A stretch of DNA of 64,000 bases from contig NZ_JAEQBW010000008.1 of assembly GCF_016679925.1 (NCBI RefSeq), positions 124,001 through 188,000 on the forward strand, written 5' to 3'. The position numbers and the translations under genes were made by a program. The notes under the pieces are model-generated. The model did not search any database, was not told where the DNA came from, and worked only from the letters and a program-made list of their open reading frames with translations. Shown here one piece after another: positions 5,153-26,088 of this stretch (the stretch's first letter is position 1; every line of letters starts with the position of its first letter). The DNA comes from Marivirga aurantiaca (GTDB lineage: Bacteria; Bacteroidota; Bacteroidia; Cytophagales; Cyclobacteriaceae).

Positions 5153-6043
5153 ATGTCAAAAGCAACCTTATTTCTCAGTAAATTTATACCACATTCACTG
5201 GAAAGAAGAATCAGAACCTTTCGGGATATTTATTTCAGAAACTATAAAATAGAGCCGTTGCCTCAGGAAATATATAGCAGTGAACTGCACCAACACTCTA
5301 TTTCCTTTTGTACCAATTGTATGAACAGGCTGTACCATTTACGACATACAATGGAAGAAAACATCAATGCGAATAGTGATTATGGCGCTGTGGAGTTTGT
5401 CCTGGTCAATTATAATTCCCGGGATGGGATGCACGAATGGGCACGGAAGCACCTAAGCAAGTATATTGATCAGGGTATACTTAATTATTATCACACTAAA
5501 GACCCTCAATATTTCCACATGTCAAAGGCCAAAAACCTGGCTCATAAATTAGCCGGGAATGAGATTGTATGTAACCTGGATGGAGATAATTATACCGGAA
5601 AAGATTTTGCTTTTTACATCAATTACTTATTTAATGAATATGGTTTGGATAATATATTTCATTTTAAAAAAGCTCCTTATTGGGGAACGGAGGGTAGAAT
5701 AGTATTAAGCCGGAAGAATTTTGTAAGGCTTGGCGGCTATGATGAGTCCTTTCATCCGGCAGGTCATCAGGACCATGATCTGATATTCAGGGGCCAAAAA
5801 TTAGGACTGGACTATAAAGTAATTGAGGTTGAGAATTTCTTAAGGTATTTAAGTAATAGCACCAAAGAAAAGTCAACCGGGCTTGCCAAAGGGAAAGTGA
5901 ATTATTACGAATTGAGGGATCAAAATATAGAGAAATCCAATAAGAATCTATCTGATGGAAAGTTGGTGGCTAATATGGATAAAGGCTGGGGTAAATCAGT
6001 GGTGTATAAAAACTTTAGCCCCAAACCCATTATATTGGATTAA
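5153..6043 (+). CDS. GT2-like glycosyltransferase, paralogue A
   Basis: A 296-residue protein with a GT-A-like nucleotide-sugar transferase fold. Residues 49-60 hold the first strand (SISFCTNCMNRL), NLDGDN at 141-146 is the metal-binding DxD equivalent, GTEGR at 178-182 and GHQDHDL at 204-210 resemble the acceptor-side acidic motif of the GT2/GT7C families. There is no signal peptide or membrane helix, so it is a cytosolic transferase using a nucleotide sugar, probably in exopolysaccharide synthesis. It is about 60% identical, without gaps over the first 220 residues, to the protein encoded on the opposite strand at 12609-13493; the two bracket the polyprenyl-phospho-pentose block. Sugar and linkage cannot be told. 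It converges with the ATP-grasp gene 8 bp away. Confidence 0.8.
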   Translation: MSKATLFLSKFIPHSLERRIRTFRDIYFRNYKIEPLPQEIYSSELHQHSISFCTNCMNRLYHLRHTMEENINANSDYGAVEFVLVNYNSRDGMHEWARKHLSKYIDQGILNYYHTKDPQYFHMSKAKNLAHKLAGNEIVCNLDGDNYTGKDFAFYINYLFNEYGLDNIFHFKKAPYWGTEGRIVLSRKNFVRLGGYDESFHPAGHQDHDLIFRGQKLGLDYKVIEVENFLRYLSNSTKEKSTGLAKGKVNYYELRDQNIEKSNKNLSDGKLVANMDKGWGKSVVYKNFSPKPIILD

Positions 6044-6051
6044 TTCTTTGA

Positions 6052-6972
6052 CTACTGCTCAATAGGTAAAGTTAATTTCTCACCTAACATCCTGTCACGT
6101 TCAAACGGATAAAACCTCCTGAAACCTGAGCCCGGATGAAAAGTAAGTTCTCCAAAATAAACATTGCCATTTACCTCATACAGATCCACCCGCACATAAC
6201 AAAAATGTTTGGCCAGCTTCTGTGCTATTGACTTCATTAATTCTAAATTTTTAGGTGGGGCAATAGGGGTGCCTTTCTCTCGGTGTGTGATGAAATCCTG
6301 TACGTTCCAGTTTTTATCGTAGAGTAATTTTTTATGGGAGAAATGGCGGTTCTCATGTACTTCGAAAATTTCCACTTCGCCATGAAAGCAATGTATTTTA
6401 AAATCAAAAGGAATAAGGCCATTTTCATCTTGGAGTAATTGTTCCACTATAATTGCAGGAGGGATGTTTTTATACTGCCATTCTCTTAAACAGTAATAAA
6501 AATTTTCATTGAGCCATTTTCTCGCTTTCTTTCTTATCCCGGACCAGTCAGCAATGTTTTTGTCTTTGACAATATGATTTCTTCCGCTACTATGAGTGGC
6601 CTTAATGATGAACGATTTCTCCTGGAAATTTTCAGGCCTTAAATCTGAAGGATTGTTAGTATATAAAATAAGAGGAATAAGATGTTGTGCTCCAATTTCT
6701 TTAGCTATAAAATCCCTGACTGCATATTTGTCAGCACAAGTAGTATGTAAGGGGGTTCTGTCATGGATTTTTAGCCATTGAATTTTCTGATTGTAGGTTT
6801 CAGGCTTTTCCAAATCCAGCTTATACCCCAGCTCATATTTAAACCTGGATTTCAAGAATACTTCATCACTCAGGATTTTGTATCTATAGAAATCATAAAC
6901 AGATTTTGGGAGTTGGAGCAATGCACCCCCAATCTTCGAGTTATTGTAAAATTTTTTTAGTACCTCACGCAT
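6052..6972 (-). CDS. TupA-like ATP-grasp enzyme
   Basis: A 306-residue protein that matches the TupA-like ATP-grasp family, named for an enzyme of teichuronopeptide synthesis. Visible landmarks are YNQKIQWLK near residue 60, the conserved CADKYAVRDFI, the nucleotide-binding IIKATHSSGRNHIV, IIVEQLL, PFDFKIHCFHG, and the C-terminal metal-ligand segment VRVDLYEVNGNVYFGELTFH. Members probably ligate an amino acid or peptide to a sugar carboxylate or modify a glycan by an ATP-dependent amide bond; the substrate here is unknown. It lies 85 bp downstream of the HAD phosphatase gene on the same strand and may be the last gene of that operon. The cytosolic location is inferred from the lack of a signal peptide. 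Confidence 0.8.
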   Translation of the reverse strand: MREVLKKFYNNSKIGGALLQLPKSVYDFYRYKILSDEVFLKSRFKYELGYKLDLEKPETYNQKIQWLKIHDRTPLHTTCADKYAVRDFIAKEIGAQHLIPLILYTNNPSDLRPENFQEKSFIIKATHSSGRNHIVKDKNIADWSGIRKKARKWLNENFYYCLREWQYKNIPPAIIVEQLLQDENGLIPFDFKIHCFHGEVEIFEVHENRHFSHKKLLYDKNWNVQDFITHREKGTPIAPPKNLELMKSIAQKLAKHFCYVRVDLYEVNGNVYFGELTFHPGSGFRRFYPFERDRMLGEKLTLPIEQ

Positions 6973-7057: not shown

Positions 7058-7654
7058 TTATTTCTTAAACTTTCGATAGACCGGGTGAGATGATATTTCC
7101 AACATTTCCTTGTCTCCCTTCGAGTCTCCATACGCATAAATGGATTCATAATCTTCAACCTTTAGCAATTCCAGGATCCTTTTCACCTTTTCAGCACCGT
7201 TACAATTTTTGCCCGCTATCCTGCCGGTAAGTTTCCCAGCTTTTTTTTCCAGCTTTGTCGCCAGCGTTTCTAAACCATTGGCATCGCACCATGGACGGAG
7301 CCAGTCTTCTGCTGATGCGGATATCACAATTACCCGGTCTCCTTCTTTCTGATGTTTCTTTATTTGTGCCAGAGCATCCATGCGAACCAATTGTGGAAGT
7401 ACATGAAAAGAAAAATCAATGGCTTGCTCTTTAAATATTTTCACTGGTTCACCTTTGAAGAAATAGGTCAATATTTTTTCTTTCACCAAAGCATTGGCTA
7501 CTATTCCCATTTTCATTGCCACAAGCAAATGAGAATGGGAAAGAAAGCCTAGGATGGTTTTCTTCTTTCCAAAATAGAATTTAAGAAATTCAATCAGCGA
7601 ATCTTTTTTGGTGATAGTGCCATCAAAATCAAATAGTGCCAGGTTTTTTTTCAA
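7058..7654 (-). CDS. HAD-IB family phosphatase
   Basis: A 198-residue HAD phosphatase of the phosphoserine-phosphatase-like IB group. Motif I is DFDGT at residues 9-13 (nucleophile Asp9, acid/base Asp11), motif II is the Ser in VISASAEDW, and motif III/IV is GDSKGD near residue 177. It overlaps the SDR gene upstream by 4 bp, a sign of translational coupling. In mycobacteria the route to decaprenyl-phospho-arabinose needs removal of the 5-phosphate after the phosphoribosyltransferase step; being locked into this operon makes this enzyme the natural candidate for that step here. That assignment is inference from position; a general phosphomonoesterase role is possible. Confidence 0.8.
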   Translation of the reverse strand: MKKNLALFDFDGTITKKDSLIEFLKFYFGKKKTILGFLSHSHLLVAMKMGIVANALVKEKILTYFFKGEPVKIFKEQAIDFSFHVLPQLVRMDALAQIKKHQKEGDRVIVISASAEDWLRPWCDANGLETLATKLEKKAGKLTGRIAGKNCNGAEKVKRILELLKVEDYESIYAYGDSKGDKEMLEISSHPVYRKFKK

Positions 7655-8406
7655 AGCTTTAGTTTTTTGAAAATTGCTTCAGGAATGTTCTTGATTATCA
7701 ACATAATAAATCTCCAGACAAATAATATATAAATAGTATTCCTTTTTTTATCAATACCCTTTACGATTCCTTTTGCTATTTGGTGAGGATTTGCCGTTAT
7801 GGCTTTGGGTAAGTCCAACCCATAAGTCATTTTGGTTGCTGCAAAGCCTGGTTTCACGGTCATCACATGTACTCCGCTTTTATAAAGCCTGTTTCTGAGT
7901 CCTCCCAGGTAAGTTGTTAATGCAGCTTTGGCACTTCCATATATATAATTGCTTTGCCTGCCGCGGTCACCGGCTACTGAAGAAACGCCCACAATAGTAC
8001 CTTGTTTCCTTTTCTCCATATCCTCAGCTACTATGTTGAGTATGGATACCATTCCGGAATAATTGCTATCAATTATTTTATGGGATTCAGCCCAATCCTG
8101 TTGTGCCAGGTTTTGATCACCAAGATAACCGAAGAAGCTGATTACCCAATCCGGCCGATGGGATAGTCCTTTATAAAAATCCTGATGTGAGGCAAAATCC
8201 GTTGCGTCAAATTCAATCAGTTCCGGTTTAATCTCACGCCTGATGGTTAAATCCGCGGCAAAGGCTTCCAGTCTTTTAATATTCCTTGAAGCTAAAAAAA
8301 GTTGGTATCCTTTCCTGGCCAACAATTCTGCCAACGCCTTTGCCATATCAGAGGTAGCGCCTAATATCAATACATTTATTTGTTTGTGAATAATAGCTTC
8401 GGTCAT
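7651..8406 (-). CDS. SDR reductase, DprE2-like (2-keto polyprenylphospho-pentose reductase)
   Basis: A 251-residue short-chain dehydrogenase. The dinucleotide-binding loop is GATSDMAKAL starting at Gly16, the NNAG-equivalent is around residue 93, the catalytic set is Ser143 (VSSVAGDRG), Tyr156 and Lys160 (YGSAK), and PGFAATKM follows the active site. The C-terminus has a hydrophobic tail (YILFVWRFIMLIIKNI), which fits an enzyme acting on a membrane lipid. Known DprE2 works with DprE1 to epimerise the ribose 2-OH of polyprenyl-phospho-ribose, reducing the keto intermediate with NAD(P)H. The DprE1-like gene is 29 bp upstream and the HAD gene overlaps its end, so the pathway role is well supported by context. 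Confidence 0.82.
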   Translation of the reverse strand: MTEAIIHKQINVLILGATSDMAKALAELLARKGYQLFLASRNIKRLEAFAADLTIRREIKPELIEFDATDFASHQDFYKGLSHRPDWVISFFGYLGDQNLAQQDWAESHKIIDSNYSGMVSILNIVAEDMEKRKQGTIVGVSSVAGDRGRQSNYIYGSAKAALTTYLGGLRNRLYKSGVHVMTVKPGFAATKMTYGLDLPKAITANPHQIAKGIVKGIDKKRNTIYILFVWRFIMLIIKNIPEAIFKKLKL

Positions 8407-8435
8407 TTCATTTTAAGATCATTTCTGTTCAAGAC

Positions 8436-9776
8436 TTAGTCCAACAATCCCAGGCGTTTTGAAAGATAAGATTCAAATTGGGTTCCAGGATTGTATTTCT
8501 TAATTATACGCTGGAATTCCTCAGCATTTTGGTATGTCTTCAAATAAGTTTCTCTGTTCATTCTTGCATCTTTGGATAAATAAATTCTTCCACCATGGTC
8601 TATCACAATAACATCCAGCTCATTTAGAAATTCGAAAATTCCTTTTCGAATGGGAAAATCCAGTGCCAATGTTAAGCCTTCCATCGGAAATGAAATCAGA
8701 CTTTTCTGCTTACCAAATAGTTTTAGTACAGCCAGGAATGAACCCCAGCCTTTTTCACTTATCTTGTTTAAAATTTTCTTTAATCCTTCAGAACCATCAG
8801 ATATGGGTAAAACAAACTGGTATTGGATAAACCCGCTTTTCCCATACATTTTGTTCCAATGTAAAATACTATCTAAAGGAAAGAAGAAGGAGTCATAATC
8901 AATAATGGCATTTTGTTTAGTCCGATGCATGCCATAATACATGGAATTAAATAATTTTACTGATGACTGGTTAAGTACAAATGCAGGTAGGTTAAAGGGG
9001 ACTGACAGCGATTTTCTACTATGTATTTGTAAAGGTCGTTTTTGCTGGGAGACTGTTAATTCTTCAATTTTTGTATGTTCACCTGCAAACATTACGCTTC
9101 TGCCTTGTTTGTGGCCTTGTTGGAGACAGTCTATCCAGGCCATGGTATAAGTGAAGTTTTTGTATTCCTCAAATAGTTCAATTACCTCATCAAGGTTTTT
9201 GGTCCGGATTTGTTTTTGTGATATATAGGCAGTTTTTATTTTTTTCAAACGGAACTTTACAGACAAAATGAGTCCGCTTAGCCCCATTCCACCCACAGTG
9301 GCAAAAAACAAATCAGTATTTTGGTGCTTGCTTACAGTAAAAATTTCCTGATCAGCAGTCATCAGTTTCAACTCCAGAATATGTTCAGAAAAGGAACCTT
9401 CCTTATGATGGTTTTTTCCGTGTACATCGGAAGCCACTGCACCTCCCAGCGTTATAAATTTTGTGCCCGGGGTAACAGGCAGAAACCAACCTCCTGGAAT
9501 CAGAAAATCTATTAAATCCTTAAATAAAATACCTGATTCACATTCAATGATTCCATTTTCCTTATCAAAGAAAAGTATATGATGGTATTTTAGAGTGCTG
9601 ATCACATTTTCCGATAAAGAAGCATCACCATAGCACCTGCCGTTCCCTCTGGCTATCATGGATTTAGCAGGTTCTAAAAGGAAGGGAAGTTCCTCAGAAT
9701 AGTCAAAGCTAAATTCATTTGCAGGAACAACGGGGTAATTATTCCAATTGGCTATATTTTTCTTTGCAGGGATCAT
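8436..9776 (-). CDS. FAD-dependent oxidase, DprE1-like (polyprenylphospho-ribose 2'-oxidase)
   Basis: A 446-residue VAO-type flavoenzyme. The N-terminal FAD domain shows ARGNGRCYGDAS and TLGGAVASDVHGKNHH, the latter nearly identical in pattern to mycobacterial DprE1. The C-terminal part shows FLAVLKLFG, ALDFPI, GGRIYLSKDAR and a final SKRLGLL, again colinear with DprE1. The catalytic lysine (Lys418 in M. tuberculosis) aligns with Lys402. The cysteine attacked by benzothiazinone drugs (Cys387) aligns with Ala371. It oxidises the 2-OH of polyprenyl-phospho-ribose as the first half of the epimerisation to arabinose. Its start codon overlaps the stop of the UbiA gene by one base. The physiological electron acceptor is not evident. 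Confidence 0.85.
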   Translation of the reverse strand: MIPAKKNIANWNNYPVVPANEFSFDYSEELPFLLEPAKSMIARGNGRCYGDASLSENVISTLKYHHILFFDKENGIIECESGILFKDLIDFLIPGGWFLPVTPGTKFITLGGAVASDVHGKNHHKEGSFSEHILELKLMTADQEIFTVSKHQNTDLFFATVGGMGLSGLILSVKFRLKKIKTAYISQKQIRTKNLDEVIELFEEYKNFTYTMAWIDCLQQGHKQGRSVMFAGEHTKIEELTVSQQKRPLQIHSRKSLSVPFNLPAFVLNQSSVKLFNSMYYGMHRTKQNAIIDYDSFFFPLDSILHWNKMYGKSGFIQYQFVLPISDGSEGLKKILNKISEKGWGSFLAVLKLFGKQKSLISFPMEGLTLALDFPIRKGIFEFLNELDVIVIDHGGRIYLSKDARMNRETYLKTYQNAEEFQRIIKKYNPGTQFESYLSKRLGLLD

Positions 9777-10669
9777 TAAAAATAGAGGATGTAAACAAAG
9801 CTAAGTGCCCACAAGATAATAGTAATGATGATGAAAAGATCTTTATAAAGTACTCTCGTGGGAGACCATCCTTTTCGTTCTACCAATAAAATTTGTAAGT
9901 ACCTTAATATTCCTGCAATCACAAAGATGCTGGTCAAATATATGTTATCACTATGTGCGCCACCCATCACATCATCCGACATGGAATACATGATATAGCA
10001 CACAATCATAATCCCTGCCAACATGGTAATGCCTGAATTGATATAAGGGATATTATATTTCCCCACATTTTTAGTGCTGATGATACCCGTTTTCGTTTCC
10101 ATTAGCAAATCATCAAGTCTTTTAGCAAGTGCCAGAAATAATGCCAATAGGAAAATCATTAGAATCAGCCATTTGGATACGGTTACATCAGCGATAATTC
10201 CGCCCCCTATTGTGCGGAAAACAAAACCACTGGCAACAATCATAATATCGAGAATAGCCACATGCTTTAATCCCAGGGAATAAAAAACATTGAAAATAAT
10301 ATAAAAAGAGATGACCCATAAAAATTGAGCAGGCAGTAGAAGTGAAATACCAAATGAAGCAAGGATTAACAGGGCCATCATCAGATAAGCTGTTGTAACA
10401 GATATTTTGCCTGATGCAATAGGCCTGTGTTTTTTGGCCGGGTGCAATAGGTCATTTTCTAAATCACTGATATCATTAAAAATATAAATAGCACTGGCGG
10501 CACAGCAAAAGGCAACAAAACCAATTGATAAATGAACAAATATGTTAAGGTCGGTGAAAATACCGGCAAAAAAAGACGGAATAAAAATAAATAAGTTTTT
10601 TACCCATTGATGTGGCCTTATGAGCCGTATCCATGTAGGGAGCTTACTTTGTGTGATGGTTAAAAACAT
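9776..10669 (-). CDS. UbiA-family polyprenyl-phosphate phosphoribosyltransferase (DPPR synthase-like)
   Basis: A 297-residue integral membrane protein of about nine helices. The RPHQWVKN motif at residues 18-25 and the Asp-rich NDxxDxxxD motif (Asn65, Asp66, Asp69, Asp73) are typical of decaprenyl-phosphate 5-phosphoribosyltransferases; YSLGLKHVAILD and AKRLDDL form the second conserved part. The family transfers phosphoribose from PRPP to a polyprenyl phosphate at the inner face of the membrane. In a Bacteroidota cell the lipid is more likely undecaprenyl than decaprenyl phosphate (inference). It is the first gene of the leftward operon with DprE1-like, DprE2-like and HAD genes; the lack of gaps between the first two argues for one transcript. 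Confidence 0.85.
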   Translation of the reverse strand: MFLTITQSKLPTWIRLIRPHQWVKNLFIFIPSFFAGIFTDLNIFVHLSIGFVAFCCAASAIYIFNDISDLENDLLHPAKKHRPIASGKISVTTAYLMMALLILASFGISLLLPAQFLWVISFYIIFNVFYSLGLKHVAILDIMIVASGFVFRTIGGGIIADVTVSKWLILMIFLLALFLALAKRLDDLLMETKTGIISTKNVGKYNIPYINSGITMLAGIMIVCYIMYSMSDDVMGGAHSDNIYLTSIFVIAGILRYLQILLVERKGWSPTRVLYKDLFIIITIILWALSFVYILYF

Positions 10670-10952
10670 TCAATCCAGGCATTTAGAATTATCTTAGATT
10701 AAGCAAATGATAGTGAGCTGAATCCATGATTTAGGTTAATTTTTTGTATCTGTATAATAAGTGTTATGAGTATCAATTTGTAATGTGTTTTTATATAGAA
10801 TAATAAAATTTTTCGGCCTGAACAGCCTTTTTCTCGTACTTTATGAAACGTATAGAAATCTTTTTTGAACCAACTTTTTTAAGAAAATAATTTAATTATT
10901 GTCTCCGAAAACAGTTTTTAATGAGTTTATTTTTACTTCAACCTTCATTTAA
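10670..10952. promoter_or_regulatory. divergent intergenic region, candidate promoter for the GT-C gene
   Basis: This 283-bp AT-rich gap separates the leftward UbiA operon from the rightward GT-C gene and must hold both promoters. On the + strand a TTTG at 10864-10867 is followed after 20 bases by TAATTT at 10888-10893, close to the Bacteroidota -33/-7 pattern (TTTG, TAnnTTTG), about 60 bases before the start codon. No clear site was seen for the leftward operon. Confidence 0.3.
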
Positions 10953-12602
10953 ATGCTTACATCTTTAGAACTAAAAAACAAACACCTGAAGTGGCTCAGC
11001 TTTGGTGTTATCTTACTATTTTCTTTTTTACCTCTGTTATTAAAATTTCCCTACAGGGTAAATATATATGTTGCCTGGGAGGGAGCTTATAGAATGTACC
11101 TGGGACAAATCCCTTTTAAGGATTTTGGCATTCCATTAGGCTATGGATTTTGGCTTATCCCTTTCCTTTTTTTTAAGATTTTTGGGCCTGCTATGTTTAC
11201 ACTTATTAAAGCCCAGGCTTTCATTAACCTCTTCAGCTTACTCACTTTCAGGGGGATCCTAAGATTATTCAAATTGAAAGAGGCGACTGTTTTCTTTTCA
11301 GTGCTGGTAATGTGTCTTTCATTTACCCTTATTAATTTCTGGCCATGGTATAATCATACTGTTTTCTTTTTCGAAATTATTGCGGTGTATTTTGCACTTT
11401 ATTATATCATCCGCAAAAAGCGGATTTATTTCCTGGTTCTGAGCACTCTTTTCATATGGCTTGCACTACTTACCAAACAGGATGGCGGGGCACTGACTTT
11501 CCTGGTGGTTTTCAGCCTTTTAATAATTGATTTTTTCTATATGAAACAGTGGAAGCCTTTATTGATTGCTATCGGATCTTTTATTGGATTCTATTTGGTG
11601 CTGATACTTCCTTTTTTACAGTATGAATTTGGGTATTGGTTTAACTATGGACAAAGCCCTCATTATTCCAGGGTGAGTAGTTATAACTTTATTAATGATA
11701 TTTTCACCCAATCTAATTGGATAAAGGGATACTTTTTAGCAGTAGTACTTATCGTACTCTATAGGTATAACAGTAAAGGCTTTTCTCAGCTGTGGAAAGA
11801 TAAAAGCTTTGTTCTTTTTACCCTATTTACTATTGGGATACTTATTCAAGCTGCTTTAATTCAGGTAACAAGTTTTAGTCCTCCTACTGTAAACCTTTAT
11901 TTCCATAGTTTTGCATTTGCCTATATCTTATTTAATATTCAGGAGAGGATAAATTTTAATAGAGCGCTTGTTTTTGGAGTAGTACTCCTGTTTGTGTTAT
12001 TCTGGAAATCAGATAACTACTGGAAATACTCTCAGCCATTGTTTACGAAAATTGCTCCTTCTTTATTTACACCTCCTCCACCGGATGTGGTTTCCAAGGG
12101 AAACTGGGCAGCAAAAAAGGATACCGTGGTTAAAAGAGAACCCGTGAGATGGGTAGAATCCGGGTTAAAGACTTTAAATAGGATTAAATTACCCAAAAAT
12201 ACTGTAGAGGGAATCAAGTCCATACAAGAGTTGGAGGTGGTTAAAACAAAAGAGGAAAACATAAAGGTGTTAAATATGTCCAATCTAACCTTTTTGGCAG
12301 CCGAACTTAATTATGAACCAGAAACTGGAAAGGATTTTCCTTTATGGTATCACCGTGGAGTGGCGTTGTTCGATAGGGAAGTGGATATGCTTTGTGAAAA
12401 GTTGAATAAAGCCGAATATGATCTTGTTTTATTTGAAGACATGCCTAATGTAGATAATTTTTTCCCATACGAAGTAATTGAATGTGCGCAGAATAAATAT
12501 CAAAGAGTAGATAAATTCCTGTCACCTACCGGCTATATTTCAGATTCAGTGGAAGTGTATGTATTGAAAGGAGCACAGGATGACGGTAATATTAATAATT
12601 AA
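10953..12602 (+). CDS. GT-C membrane glycosyltransferase
   Basis: A 549-residue protein with about twelve membrane helices in the first 355 residues and a soluble C-terminal part of about 170 residues. The first extracytoplasmic loop carries the GT-C signature WEGAYRMYLGQIPFKDFG (Glu43, Asp57), and a second loop has TKQDGGAL. GT-C enzymes take sugars from polyprenyl-phosphate donors at the outer face of the membrane. It is transcribed divergently from the polyprenyl-phospho-pentose operon, so a pentofuranosyl transferase using that donor is the best guess; a hexose-specific PMT/ArnT-like activity cannot be excluded. A proline-rich segment (FTPPPPDV) links the two parts. Confidence 0.78.
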   Translation: MLTSLELKNKHLKWLSFGVILLFSFLPLLLKFPYRVNIYVAWEGAYRMYLGQIPFKDFGIPLGYGFWLIPFLFFKIFGPAMFTLIKAQAFINLFSLLTFRGILRLFKLKEATVFFSVLVMCLSFTLINFWPWYNHTVFFFEIIAVYFALYYIIRKKRIYFLVLSTLFIWLALLTKQDGGALTFLVVFSLLIIDFFYMKQWKPLLIAIGSFIGFYLVLILPFLQYEFGYWFNYGQSPHYSRVSSYNFINDIFTQSNWIKGYFLAVVLIVLYRYNSKGFSQLWKDKSFVLFTLFTIGILIQAALIQVTSFSPPTVNLYFHSFAFAYILFNIQERINFNRALVFGVVLLFVLFWKSDNYWKYSQPLFTKIAPSLFTPPPPDVVSKGNWAAKKDTVVKREPVRWVESGLKTLNRIKLPKNTVEGIKSIQELEVVKTKEENIKVLNMSNLTFLAAELNYEPETGKDFPLWYHRGVALFDREVDMLCEKLNKAEYDLVLFEDMPNVDNFFPYEVIECAQNKYQRVDKFLSPTGYISDSVEVYVLKGAQDDGNINN

Positions 12603-12608
12603 ACTTGC

Positions 12609-13493
12609 TTAATAGATTTCCGGCTGTTCAGAAAAATTTTTATATAATTTAAATTTTTTCATGCCTCCGGGGTTGGCCTTTAGCTGTCCTTTGCTAATAT
12701 TATCGTTGGAAATTTTCCGGTTGGTATTCTCTAGCTGATAGTAGCTCGTTTTGCCATCCGCACAATTTTCGGCTTTCTCTTTTTCCGTGTTGCTTAAGTA
12801 CTTCAGGAAATTTTCAATCTGGATATTATGGTAAGCAAGTCCTGAAGCTTTTGCCCTGTTTATTAAGTCATGGTCTTCATGTCCAATGGGCAAAAGCGCT
12901 TCATCATAACCACCGATTTTTAAAAAATTCTCCTTTGTGAGAACAATCCGTCCTTCGGTGCCCCAAAATGGTTTCTTGGTAAACTGAAGAAGTATATCAT
13001 CTGTATATTGATTGAATAAATAATTAATATAAAAGGCAAAATCCTTTCCGGTAAAGTTGTCCCCATCCAGGTTGCAAACTATTTTTCCCCGGGCCACCCT
13101 GTGCGATAGGTTTTTAGCGATTGAGGCATGGAACGATTCAGGCTCGTCAGTTCTATAATAATTTAATAAGCCCTGGTCTATATATTTCTGCATGTTTTTT
13201 CTCATCCAGTCATCCAGCTTGTCTTTTGAGTTATAGTTTACAACAGTAAATTCAACATTTTTATAGGATTGGTTGTCAAGAATATTCTTCTCCAGCGTAT
13301 TTCTCAAATGAAAAAGCCTGTTCATGCAAGTAATACAGAAAGAGATTGAATGAAAATCCTGCTTTTCTGAATAAATGGCTTTGGGCAATTTTTCAATTTT
13401 ATATTTTCTGAAATAATTGTCCCTTATTTCCCTTAAAACTCGTTCAAACCTTTGAGGTATTATTTTTTTTATGAATAAATTCCTGATGGGCAT
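12609..13493 (-). CDS. GT2-like glycosyltransferase, paralogue B
   Basis: A 294-residue cytosolic glycosyltransferase colinear with the gene at 5153-6043 but on the opposite strand. It keeps all landmarks: SISFCITCMNRL at 49-60, NLDGDN at 141-146, the strictly shared DFAFYINYLFN after it, GTEGR at 178-182 and GHEDHDL at 204-210. Divergence is greatest at residues 161-171 and after 215, so the two may use different acceptors. It ends 6 bp from the convergent GT-C gene and starts about 200 bp from the divergent pyruvyl transferase gene. Donor and acceptor are unknown. Confidence 0.8.
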   Translation of the reverse strand: MPIRNLFIKKIIPQRFERVLREIRDNYFRKYKIEKLPKAIYSEKQDFHSISFCITCMNRLFHLRNTLEKNILDNQSYKNVEFTVVNYNSKDKLDDWMRKNMQKYIDQGLLNYYRTDEPESFHASIAKNLSHRVARGKIVCNLDGDNFTGKDFAFYINYLFNQYTDDILLQFTKKPFWGTEGRIVLTKENFLKIGGYDEALLPIGHEDHDLINRAKASGLAYHNIQIENFLKYLSNTEKEKAENCADGKTSYYQLENTNRKISNDNISKGQLKANPGGMKKFKLYKNFSEQPEIY

Positions 13494-24666: not shown

Positions 24667-26088
24667 CTATGTCTCTTCCATTTCATCTATATCTTGTAAT
24701 TTTATCATCAGTGCATAGGTAGCAATTACCAGGATGTTAATAGGTTTTTGGAATAAAGCATCTTGTGCATAATGTGCCACAGACAAGCCAAGAAATGGAA
24801 CGATGTACATTATTGAATAGGTTTTCAGTAGAGAATCTTTTAAGTTAAAATAGTTTTTAATTCCTTTGATCACAATTGCCAGGTTTAGGCTCATTGCGAT
24901 AAGAAGGCCAATCCATCCCATCTCTAATGCTGTACGTAAATACCCGCTGTCCGGGTCATAATTTCCTGCTAAAGGATGTCCTCTCGAAAGTGCTAAACCG
25001 GAATTTCCTGCGGTATTCAATCCTCCGCCAATGGGATGGGTTTTCACATAGGCTTGCAACCTGATCCTTTTAGCATCCCTTACTGCCATGGAAGCATCCC
25101 CTTCAAATTCAAAGGTAGATCTCATTCGTTTAATAGGGCCACTATAGAACGGCCCCACCATTAAAATTATAAAAATCAGTACCAGCACGGAACTTCCTGC
25201 CAGAATTTTGGGATTTCGCAGATTGGCCACAATAAATAAAACAATACCTACTGCTACCATGGCATAAGCAGTTCTTGTGCCTGAAAATGACATGGCATAG
25301 AACATAAACATGGTCATTCCAAAATATAATGACTTTCTGGCGATAGAAAAAGGCCCAAAGCCCATCATCAAAGTAGCTAGTCCACAGAATCCGAGAAAAA
25401 GTCCATAGGCAGATGGATCGGAAAGAAAAGAGAACACCCTCATGTGGCCCCAAACATAATATAATCCCAATCTATTAGGGTCGGCTCTAAGCCATTTCCA
25501 CTCGAAATCACGCAAGCCAAAATACTCTTGAAACAAACCATAGGAGGCCACCAACATAGCTATGCTCATCCAGAGCACATTGAAATAAGCTACTCGCTTC
25601 TTGTTTTCAAAGAAGTGTATAAATACATAAAACAATAAGAAAAGTGTCATGAAACGGGCAGAGGTGACCCATGCGGCTATACTTACTGCGTTCGGATTGG
25701 CTATTTGTAAAATAAAATAAGCATAGAATATAAATTGGATGATCACAATCGGCTCATTTGTTTTCCACTGAAAACCCTTTTTGTTTCGGGCATTTACCAG
25801 GGTGGACAAGAAAGTTAGTAAAATGATAAGGTCATATGCAATTCCATAGGGGATGTGAACATTAATGATTTTACCCAGCACAAACATGCTGCAACCATAG
25901 ATAAAAAGCAGGTATACGCCAAATTGAAAGTTTGCTAAAGTAAGCCCAACCACAAATATTGAGAGCACCGTCAGAATGATAAAGGGAGCCACCATATAGG
26001 TAGTTTGCACCATTATAAAGGGAATGGCAACTGATACCATTAATAAAAAAAGGAGTAGAAGAATCTTTTTACGATCGAGCGAAATCAT
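24667..26088 (-). CDS. O-antigen ligase / Wzy-like polymerase
   Basis: A 473-residue membrane protein of about twelve helices. The large periplasmic loop holds KRMRSTFEFEG...AVRDAKRIRLQ and HPLAGNYDPDSGYLRTALEMGWIG, which match the O-antigen ligase/polymerase superfamily, and SGTRTAYAMVAVGI precedes it. It polymerises or ligates undecaprenyl-linked repeats at the periplasmic face. A small membrane protein gene ends 6 bp before its start, so the two are probably cotranscribed. Which of ligase or Wzy it is cannot be decided by sequence; lack of a lipid A-core locus nearby favours exopolysaccharide polymerase. Confidence 0.8.
   Translation of the reverse strand: MISLDRKKILLLLFLLMVSVAIPFIMVQTTYMVAPFIILTVLSIFVVGLTLANFQFGVYLLFIYGCSMFVLGKIINVHIPYGIAYDLIILLTFLSTLVNARNKKGFQWKTNEPIVIIQFIFYAYFILQIANPNAVSIAAWVTSARFMTLFLLFYVFIHFFENKKRVAYFNVLWMSIAMLVASYGLFQEYFGLRDFEWKWLRADPNRLGLYYVWGHMRVFSFLSDPSAYGLFLGFCGLATLMMGFGPFSIARKSLYFGMTMFMFYAMSFSGTRTAYAMVAVGIVLFIVANLRNPKILAGSSVLVLIFIILMVGPFYSGPIKRMRSTFEFEGDASMAVRDAKRIRLQAYVKTHPIGGGLNTAGNSGLALSRGHPLAGNYDPDSGYLRTALEMGWIGLLIAMSLNLAIVIKGIKNYFNLKDSLLKTYSIMYIVPFLGLSVAHYAQDALFQKPINILVIATYALMIKLQDIDEMEET

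Follow-up and report, generated by a model that had tools for sequence, protein, structure and literature searches.

In a 5.0-Mb draft genome of Marivirga aurantiaca, a marine gliding bacterium (Bacteroidota), five adjacent genes are likely to encode the synthesis of polyprenyl-phospho-D-arabinofuranose and the transfer of its sugar, at the periplasmic face, to an envelope glycan by a membrane glycosyltransferase of the GT-C fold. They occupy positions 7058-12602 of the stretch analysed here (64,000 nucleotides, contig NZ_JAEQBW010000008.1, positions 124,001 to 188,000; hereafter the window). D-arabinofuranose (D-Araf) is best known from the cell wall of mycobacteria, where the pathway that makes it is a drug target. 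Support for the proposal comes from enzyme families and conserved active sites, from the predicted fold of the glycosyltransferase, from gene linkage, and from the genome-wide co-occurrence of the glycosyltransferase with DprE1.

Four genes on the minus strand form a tight operon. In the proposed pathway, the UbiA-superfamily polyprenyl-phosphate phosphoribosyltransferase (9776-10669, Rv3806c-like) would transfer phosphoribose from phosphoribosyl pyrophosphate (PRPP) to polyprenyl phosphate, yielding polyprenyl-P-ribose-5-P, and the HAD-IB phosphatase (7058-7654) would then take off the 5'-phosphate. The DprE1-like FAD oxidase (8436-9776) would oxidise C2 of polyprenyl-P-ribose to give a 2-keto sugar, which the DprE2-like short-chain dehydrogenase (SDR, 7651-8406) would reduce to the arabino form. 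The product would be polyprenyl-phospho-beta-D-arabinofuranose, the lipid probably being undecaprenyl phosphate. After a flippase has brought the lipid-linked sugar to the periplasmic face, the product of the divergent GT-C gene (10953-12602, plus strand, 549 amino acids), a proposed D-arabinofuranosyltransferase, would move D-Araf onto an envelope glycan there. In this scheme, we infer the exact sugar, the use of the donor by the GT-C protein, the acceptor and the flippase. All five genes are present with open frames, the phosphatase frame starting with TTG. The overlaps of 4 bp (HAD/SDR) and 1 bp (FAD oxidase/UbiA) reported by the first-pass annotation are borne out by the positions of the open reading frames (ORFs); the gap between SDR and FAD oxidase is 29 bp. 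The 283 bp separating the UbiA and GT-C genes (10670-10952), as read from the sequence, presumably hold the divergent promoters.

The four enzyme assignments, already made in that annotation, stand up to comparison with Pfam, NCBIfam and PDB sequences. The UbiA protein scored 212 bits on the NCBIfam decaprenyl-phosphate phosphoribosyltransferase model PRK12324.1-4, above its cut-off of 207, and the Rv3806c structures 8j8j/8j8k were its sole PDB relatives (E 1.9e-38). In Rv3806c, residues R22, K28, N73, D77, K87, R90, Y138 and K143 bind PRPP, magnesium and pyrophosphate (PMC10994848). All eight are retained in the Marivirga protein, Q135 is replaced by Asn, and the PRPP-site residues are conserved in an alignment of 108 Bacteroidota sequences. 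For the FAD oxidase, the DprE1 model gave 427.7 bits and the second family 46 (NCBIfam); the top PDB chain was DprE1 as well (4aut, E 6e-83). DprE1 residues H132, K134, W230, Q334, Q336, K367 and K418 are retained in the window protein and in 110-111 of 111 Bacteroidota sequences. C387 of mycobacterial DprE1 is Ala in the window protein and in 107/111 Bacteroidota homologues. In mycobacteria, benzothiazinone drugs bind this cysteine covalently; the replacement thus predicts that they would act differently on the Bacteroidota homologues.

For the SDR, the nearest solved structure is DprE2 (21gq_C, from the DprE1-DprE2 complex, E 1.7e-30; runner-up 4.5e-16). Among NCBIfam models, PRK07102 exceeded its cut-off and the DprE2 model ranked second with 191 bits; Y156/K160 and S143 are conserved at 97% or more in 113 relatives. 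The phosphatase matched PF12710 (111 bits) and TIGR01490, above the cut-off of the latter, and its motifs FDFDGT, S114, K156 and GDxxxD are all present, and conserved in 83 relatives. The mycobacterial 5'-phosphatase, Rv3807c, has no relationship to HAD phosphatases; in the Citrobacter system a HAD domain is used (PMC11127046). The first-pass annotation had recognised the full mycobacterial route. This stands for the UbiA, DprE1 and DprE2 steps, whose closest structures are mycobacterial; the phosphatase, in contrast, is of the HAD type, as in Citrobacter, and no flippase was found among the scanned ORFs near the cassette. Altogether, homology with retained active sites supports the four enzyme steps, and judging from sequence the operon very probably makes the same lipid-linked D-Araf that tuberculosis bacteria use for their cell wall.

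The protein encoded by the divergent gene has no Pfam or NCBIfam match, and PMT_2 matches weakly in 2 of 19 relatives. An AlphaFold2 model built with 19 natural relatives reached a predicted template modelling score (pTM) of 0.84. Its structural matches listed were essentially all GT-C proteins, with Pmt4 at Z 16.2, ArnT at 15.2 and EmbB bound to decaprenyl-phospho-arabinose (DPA) at 14.4, values to be read knowing that for helical proteins a Z up to about 13-14 may be mere arrangement. Also among the matches listed were oligosaccharyltransferases, AftA, AftB and AftD; 57 chains had a Z of at least 8, and the GT-C fold is common to the matches listed, over as many as 446 residues. By its model, then, the membrane protein is a GT-C-fold enzyme. 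In the first extracytoplasmic loop, after the first transmembrane segment, E43 is Glu or Asp in 99/99 sequences and D57 is kept in 98/99; K175, D177, N231, H237, R240 and H467 are invariant in all 99. These residues are candidates for the catalytic and donor sites. The comparison with Emb proteins proposed earlier thus returned DPA-bound EmbB among the matches, and the suggestion of a GT-C user beside the operon gains from the predicted fold and from the co-occurrence with DprE1, which together suggest that the protein uses the lipid-linked D-Araf donor.

To count this co-occurrence, a profile of the GT-C family was run against GTDB species genomes, and the best 80 of 198 coding stretches, from 79 genomes, were analysed. 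All 80 loci belong to Bacteroidota, the named ones to Cytophagales and Chitinophagales; the best named relative is Marivirga sericea DSM 4125 (GT-C 71% identity, linked DprE1 66%). At least one operon gene lay within the stretch examined in 73/80 loci. The arrangement HAD< DprE2< DprE1< UbiA< GT-C>, with order and orientation as in the window, was found in 43/80, another 13 had UbiA-DprE2-HAD without DprE1, and in 4 the GT-C gene was co-directional at the end of the operon. Since these loci were recruited by the GT-C family alone, the recurring order is not due to chance. DprE1 was present in 79/79 GT-C genomes, nearby in 56 and elsewhere in the genome in 23; the 24 loci lacking a local DprE1 fall in 23 genomes, and all 23 have it elsewhere. 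Likewise, in the six genomes where the GT-C gene stands alone, UbiA is encoded elsewhere (6/6). Several GT-C/DprE1 pairs being unlinked, a shared neighbourhood alone does not explain their co-occurrence.

A comparison of 60 relatives, own genome included, gave 15 genomes with both GT-C and DprE1, 44 with neither, one with DprE1 only and none with GT-C only; the genus itself is evenly split, with five genomes having both and five neither. Of 395 Bacteroidota genomes sampled across the phylum, 82 have DprE1 and 7 have GT-C, all seven DprE1-positive. Among 72,556 plasmids, a single one carried GT-C, a 53.6-kb Flammeovirgaceae plasmid that also bears UbiA-DprE1-DprE2. The first-pass claim that PRPP is converted to a polyprenyl-phospho-pentofuranose, with epimerisation at C2, and that a linked GT-C protein uses the product, is supported by best-hit identity, active-site residues, fold and co-occurrence.

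The same plasmid (CP139022.1, Flammeovirgaceae bacterium SG7u.111; L235/L243) also has an O-antigen ligase-like gene, acyltransferases and a TolC-like gene, and carries a surface-glycan island. In the DprE1 tree, the window protein groups with the Cytophagales and Chitinophagales sequences that are linked to GT-C, and solitary DprE1 proteins form a separate clade. Eighteen genomes (L067, L069, L215-L230; e.g. G034:C86:303822-305150) have such a solitary DprE1 far from UbiA-DprE2-HAD-GT-C, and these sequences make one group (support 100/99), as if one DprE1 lineage had been exchanged for another while the other operon genes stayed in place. Some operons hold additional genes: in Marivirga sericea (L054:11357-13612), a 751-amino-acid protein with Golvesin_C, fn3 and weak esterase matches is encoded between DprE1 and DprE2, and in three loci (L061, L062, L064) a protein of 389-401 amino acids, abhydrolase-like in L061, follows DprE2. 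In a further family (f24; L080, L081, L082, L105, L106), a UbiA-DprE1-DprE2-HAD operon without this GT-C lies close to a class-V aminotransferase (cysteine desulfurase-like) gene, and the neighbourhood is conserved; another user of the donor probably exists there.

Two other membrane families were compared with the GT-C family, called A1 for this purpose. A specific kinship with the DprE-linked membrane proteins of alphaproteobacterial plasmids (A3) was considered and dropped. Aligned with hhalign, A1 and A3 matched with Prob 86.5 over 440 columns (controls at most 3.7), and the motif [DE]GAxRxxxGxxPxxDF was found in 98/99 A1 and 11/11 A3 sequences and in 0/2,858 other ORFs; however, a generic PMT_2-type GT-C protein (L247) matched better, with Prob 95.9. 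As generic proteins of this type match equally well or better, the similarity reflects a broad GT-C clade and is no evidence on the donor. The second family, A2, is also unnamed (about 400 amino acids) and is encoded near GT-C in eight relatives (L057:6254-7579, L061:6190-7392, L068:6899-8170 and five more). Its AlphaFold2 model (pTM 0.81) resembles GT-C proteins (Z up to 19.6), and its invariant residues include H146, R148, E149, D150 and R183-E184-T185. It was rejected as kin of A1, to which no sequence link was detectable, and it is absent from the window; the protein adjacent to GT-C on plasmid CP139022 is not an A2 member.

Several points weigh against the proposed pathway. The FAD oxidase and the SDR stay below the NCBIfam equivalog cut-offs for DprE1 (427.7 against 500 bits, NF053785) and DprE2 (191 against 250 bits, NF053786), and a sequence does not reveal in which direction and with what stereochemistry the reduction runs. 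A PDB profile search with the GT-C protein matched no Emb, AftA, AftB or AftD chain, and no solved arabinosyltransferase. The agreement between GT-C and DprE1 in 59 of the 60 relatives (Fisher 3e-13) is a value that ignores genome relatedness. A flippase was not found among the ORFs scanned around the cassette, nor was a GtrA-family gene anywhere in the genome, MATE proteins not having been searched separately. Finally, no D-arabinose analysis of a Bacteroidota envelope, including Flavobacterium or Cytophaga, was found in the open-licence literature searched.

With no nearby flippase and no GtrA, the pathway encoded in the locus is incomplete at the flipping step. Two Wzx-like genes lie on other contigs of the genome; in about ten of the relatives' loci examined such genes are near GT-C or DprE1, and none is in the window. 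An EamA transporter encoded beside GT-C in about 20 Chitinophaga-type loci was tried as the flippase. It accompanies a CGNR/ABATE regulator, and the candidate is weak because this EamA/ABATE pair recurs in an unrelated Rhizobium stretch.

Where the sugar ends up depends on how the neighbourhood is read. In the window, the cassette is surrounded by genes that family scans assign to two GT2-like enzymes, a TupA-like ATP-grasp protein, a pyruvyl transferase, two sulfotransferases, a methyltransferase, more glycosyltransferases, a Wzy_C protein and a Wzz/tyrosine-kinase-like protein. The surrounding region is a surface polysaccharide locus, whose polymer, from the gene content, is probably sulfated and pyruvylated. 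The acceptor of D-Araf could be this capsule or O-polysaccharide, or a glycoprotein. The adjoining TupA-like gene (6052-6972, minus strand; PF14305, E 4e-48) may serve surface-polymer modification, the GT2-like glycosyltransferase beside GT-C (12609-13493, minus strand; PF10111/PF02709) is a candidate enzyme of the acceptor glycan, and the Wzy_C O-antigen ligase/polymerase family protein (24667-26088, minus strand; PF04932, E 3e-13) belongs to the surrounding locus. The two GT2-like genes (5153-6043, plus strand, and 12609-13493, minus strand) encode proteins 57% identical and are inverted, bracketing the stretch from TupA through the operon to GT-C, as if the cassette sat inside an inverted duplication.

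In Chitinophaga-type genomes, on the other hand, the five genes are often found among recG, trehalose-6-P synthase and glucokinase genes and not in a capsule locus, a housekeeping neighbourhood that hints at a conserved acceptor rather than a variable capsule. D-Araf is, moreover, borne by Pseudomonas aeruginosa pilins, as cited in PMC10115798. That D-Araf is passed to a protein or to a conserved glycan of the envelope, and not to the capsule made by the present locus, is compatible with the donor pathway and is a serious possibility, a little short of an even chance; the cassettes of Marivirga and other Cytophagales, sitting in a Wzy/Wzz/glycosyltransferase polysaccharide locus, speak against it. 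A wider proposal, which we put at even odds, is that the whole GT-C family of Cytophagales and Chitinophagales, large and unnamed, is a dedicated D-arabinofuranosyltransferase. It would attach D-Araf of the mycobacterial type to an envelope glycan or glycoprotein that is conserved, the donor being flipped by some type of transporter so far not associated with this pathway.

The end product might also be another pentofuranose, D-ribofuranose (D-Ribf) or D-xylofuranose (D-Xylf), the DprE-like pair acting elsewhere or otherwise and the GT-C protein using polyprenyl-P-ribofuranose or -xylofuranose. In Citrobacter O1/O2, one entry enzyme serves both Ribf and Xylf, and the GT-C enzyme is promiscuous for its donor (PMC11127046); several of our GT-C loci have UbiA-DprE2-HAD without a local DprE1. 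We nevertheless consider this alternative unlikely, given the DprE1 gene elsewhere in 23/23 of the genomes in question, the invariant or nearly invariant redox-site residues of DprE1, and an SDR that is nearest to DprE2 among solved structures; in addition, the Xylf systems of PMC11127046 have a GalE-like epimerase instead of DprE1/E2. The ribofuranose left as an alternative by the first-pass annotation is thus the less likely sugar, since every GT-C-bearing genome checked has DprE1; arabinose itself we infer.

Alternatively, the operon could make polyprenyl-P-D-Araf while the GT-C protein uses another lipid-linked sugar, the two being linked because both serve envelope glycans. The first-loop motif is common to generic PMT_2-like GT-C proteins, hence uninformative on the donor, and a DprE operon without this GT-C is found in 75 of the 82 DprE1-positive Bacteroidota genomes. 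Yet no GT-C genome checked lacks DprE1, even where the genes are far apart, and in Chitinophaga the GT-C gene keeps its place next to UbiA or at the end of the operon, outside capsule clusters, so that we regard a different donor as improbable. That the FAD oxidase and the SDR come from other pathways (e.g. as an aldonolactone oxidase and a generic ketoreductase) and are together here by chance is very hard to maintain: in spite of their scores below the equivalog cut-offs, DprE1 leads the next family by 428 to 46 bits, the top PDB matches are DprE1 and DprE2, and the operon is found again and again across Bacteroidota and, with GtrA, in Alphaproteobacteria.

A DprE1 homologue is present in roughly one in five of the Bacteroidota genomes sampled (82/395), and in Cytophagales and Chitinophagales it is often accompanied by a GT-C family unnamed in the databases used; its members are concrete, testable candidates for new arabinosyltransferases. 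Gut Bacteroidetes have D-arabinanases (PMC10115798), and D-arabinan-like glycans for these enzymes might in nature come from systems such as the present one.

Among the closest known systems are the extracytoplasmic pentofuranose systems of Citrobacter youngae O1/O2, described in 2024 as PPPRS-PRP, a MATE flippase and GT136 (PMC11127046). That work also notes DprE1/E2 homologues in candidate systems whose glycans contain Araf, and its main text leaves Bacteroidota unmentioned. Marivirga shares with Citrobacter a UbiA-type PPPRS, a HAD phosphatase, a linked GT-C enzyme and the context of an envelope polysaccharide. It differs by separate HAD and UbiA genes, by DprE1/E2, and by a cassette without flippase. 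Of the features of the three-component system, the PPPRS and a PPPRS-linked GT-C fold are both found; the HAD-IB protein, with the motifs of its family, is the candidate for PRP. The GT-C protein is likened to GT136 as a linked GT-C enzyme, and its C-terminal domain is no demonstrated carbohydrate-binding module. Because the cluster has no flippase, we liken it in function to the three-component system and do not class it as a complete member.

With the mycobacterial DPA pathway (Rv3806c, Rv3807c, DprE1, DprE2, Rv3789, Emb/Aft), the cassette shares three homologous enzymes, a GT-C user and the same predicted sugar. Unlike in mycobacteria, however, the phosphatase is a HAD protein and not Rv3807c, the GtrA-type Rv3789 is missing, C387 is replaced by Ala, and the GT-C protein has no detectable sequence relation to the Emb, AftA, AftB and AftD chains of the PDB. 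Plasmid loci of Alphaproteobacteria (Rhizobium, Paracoccus, Tateyamaria; L236, L238-L242) have the same four activities next to one to three membrane proteins of 500-550 amino acids, which gave no Pfam match in the two tested. They differ by a HAD-UbiA fusion, where tested, and by a GtrA gene embedded with the fused HAD-UbiA on one side and DprE1 on the other, and are probable D-Araf systems with uncharacterised GT-C enzymes. The TfpW system of Pseudomonas aeruginosa Pa5196/PA7 pilins is likewise Gram-negative, with a PPPRS homologue and a predicted GT-C user of polyprenyl-P-Araf; it differs by its pilin acceptor, and TfpW is likened to the Marivirga GT-C protein by description only. Compared with the Citrobacter systems, the Marivirga system is new in its separate HAD gene, in a cassette devoid of flippase, in its unnamed GT-C family, and in belonging to another phylum.

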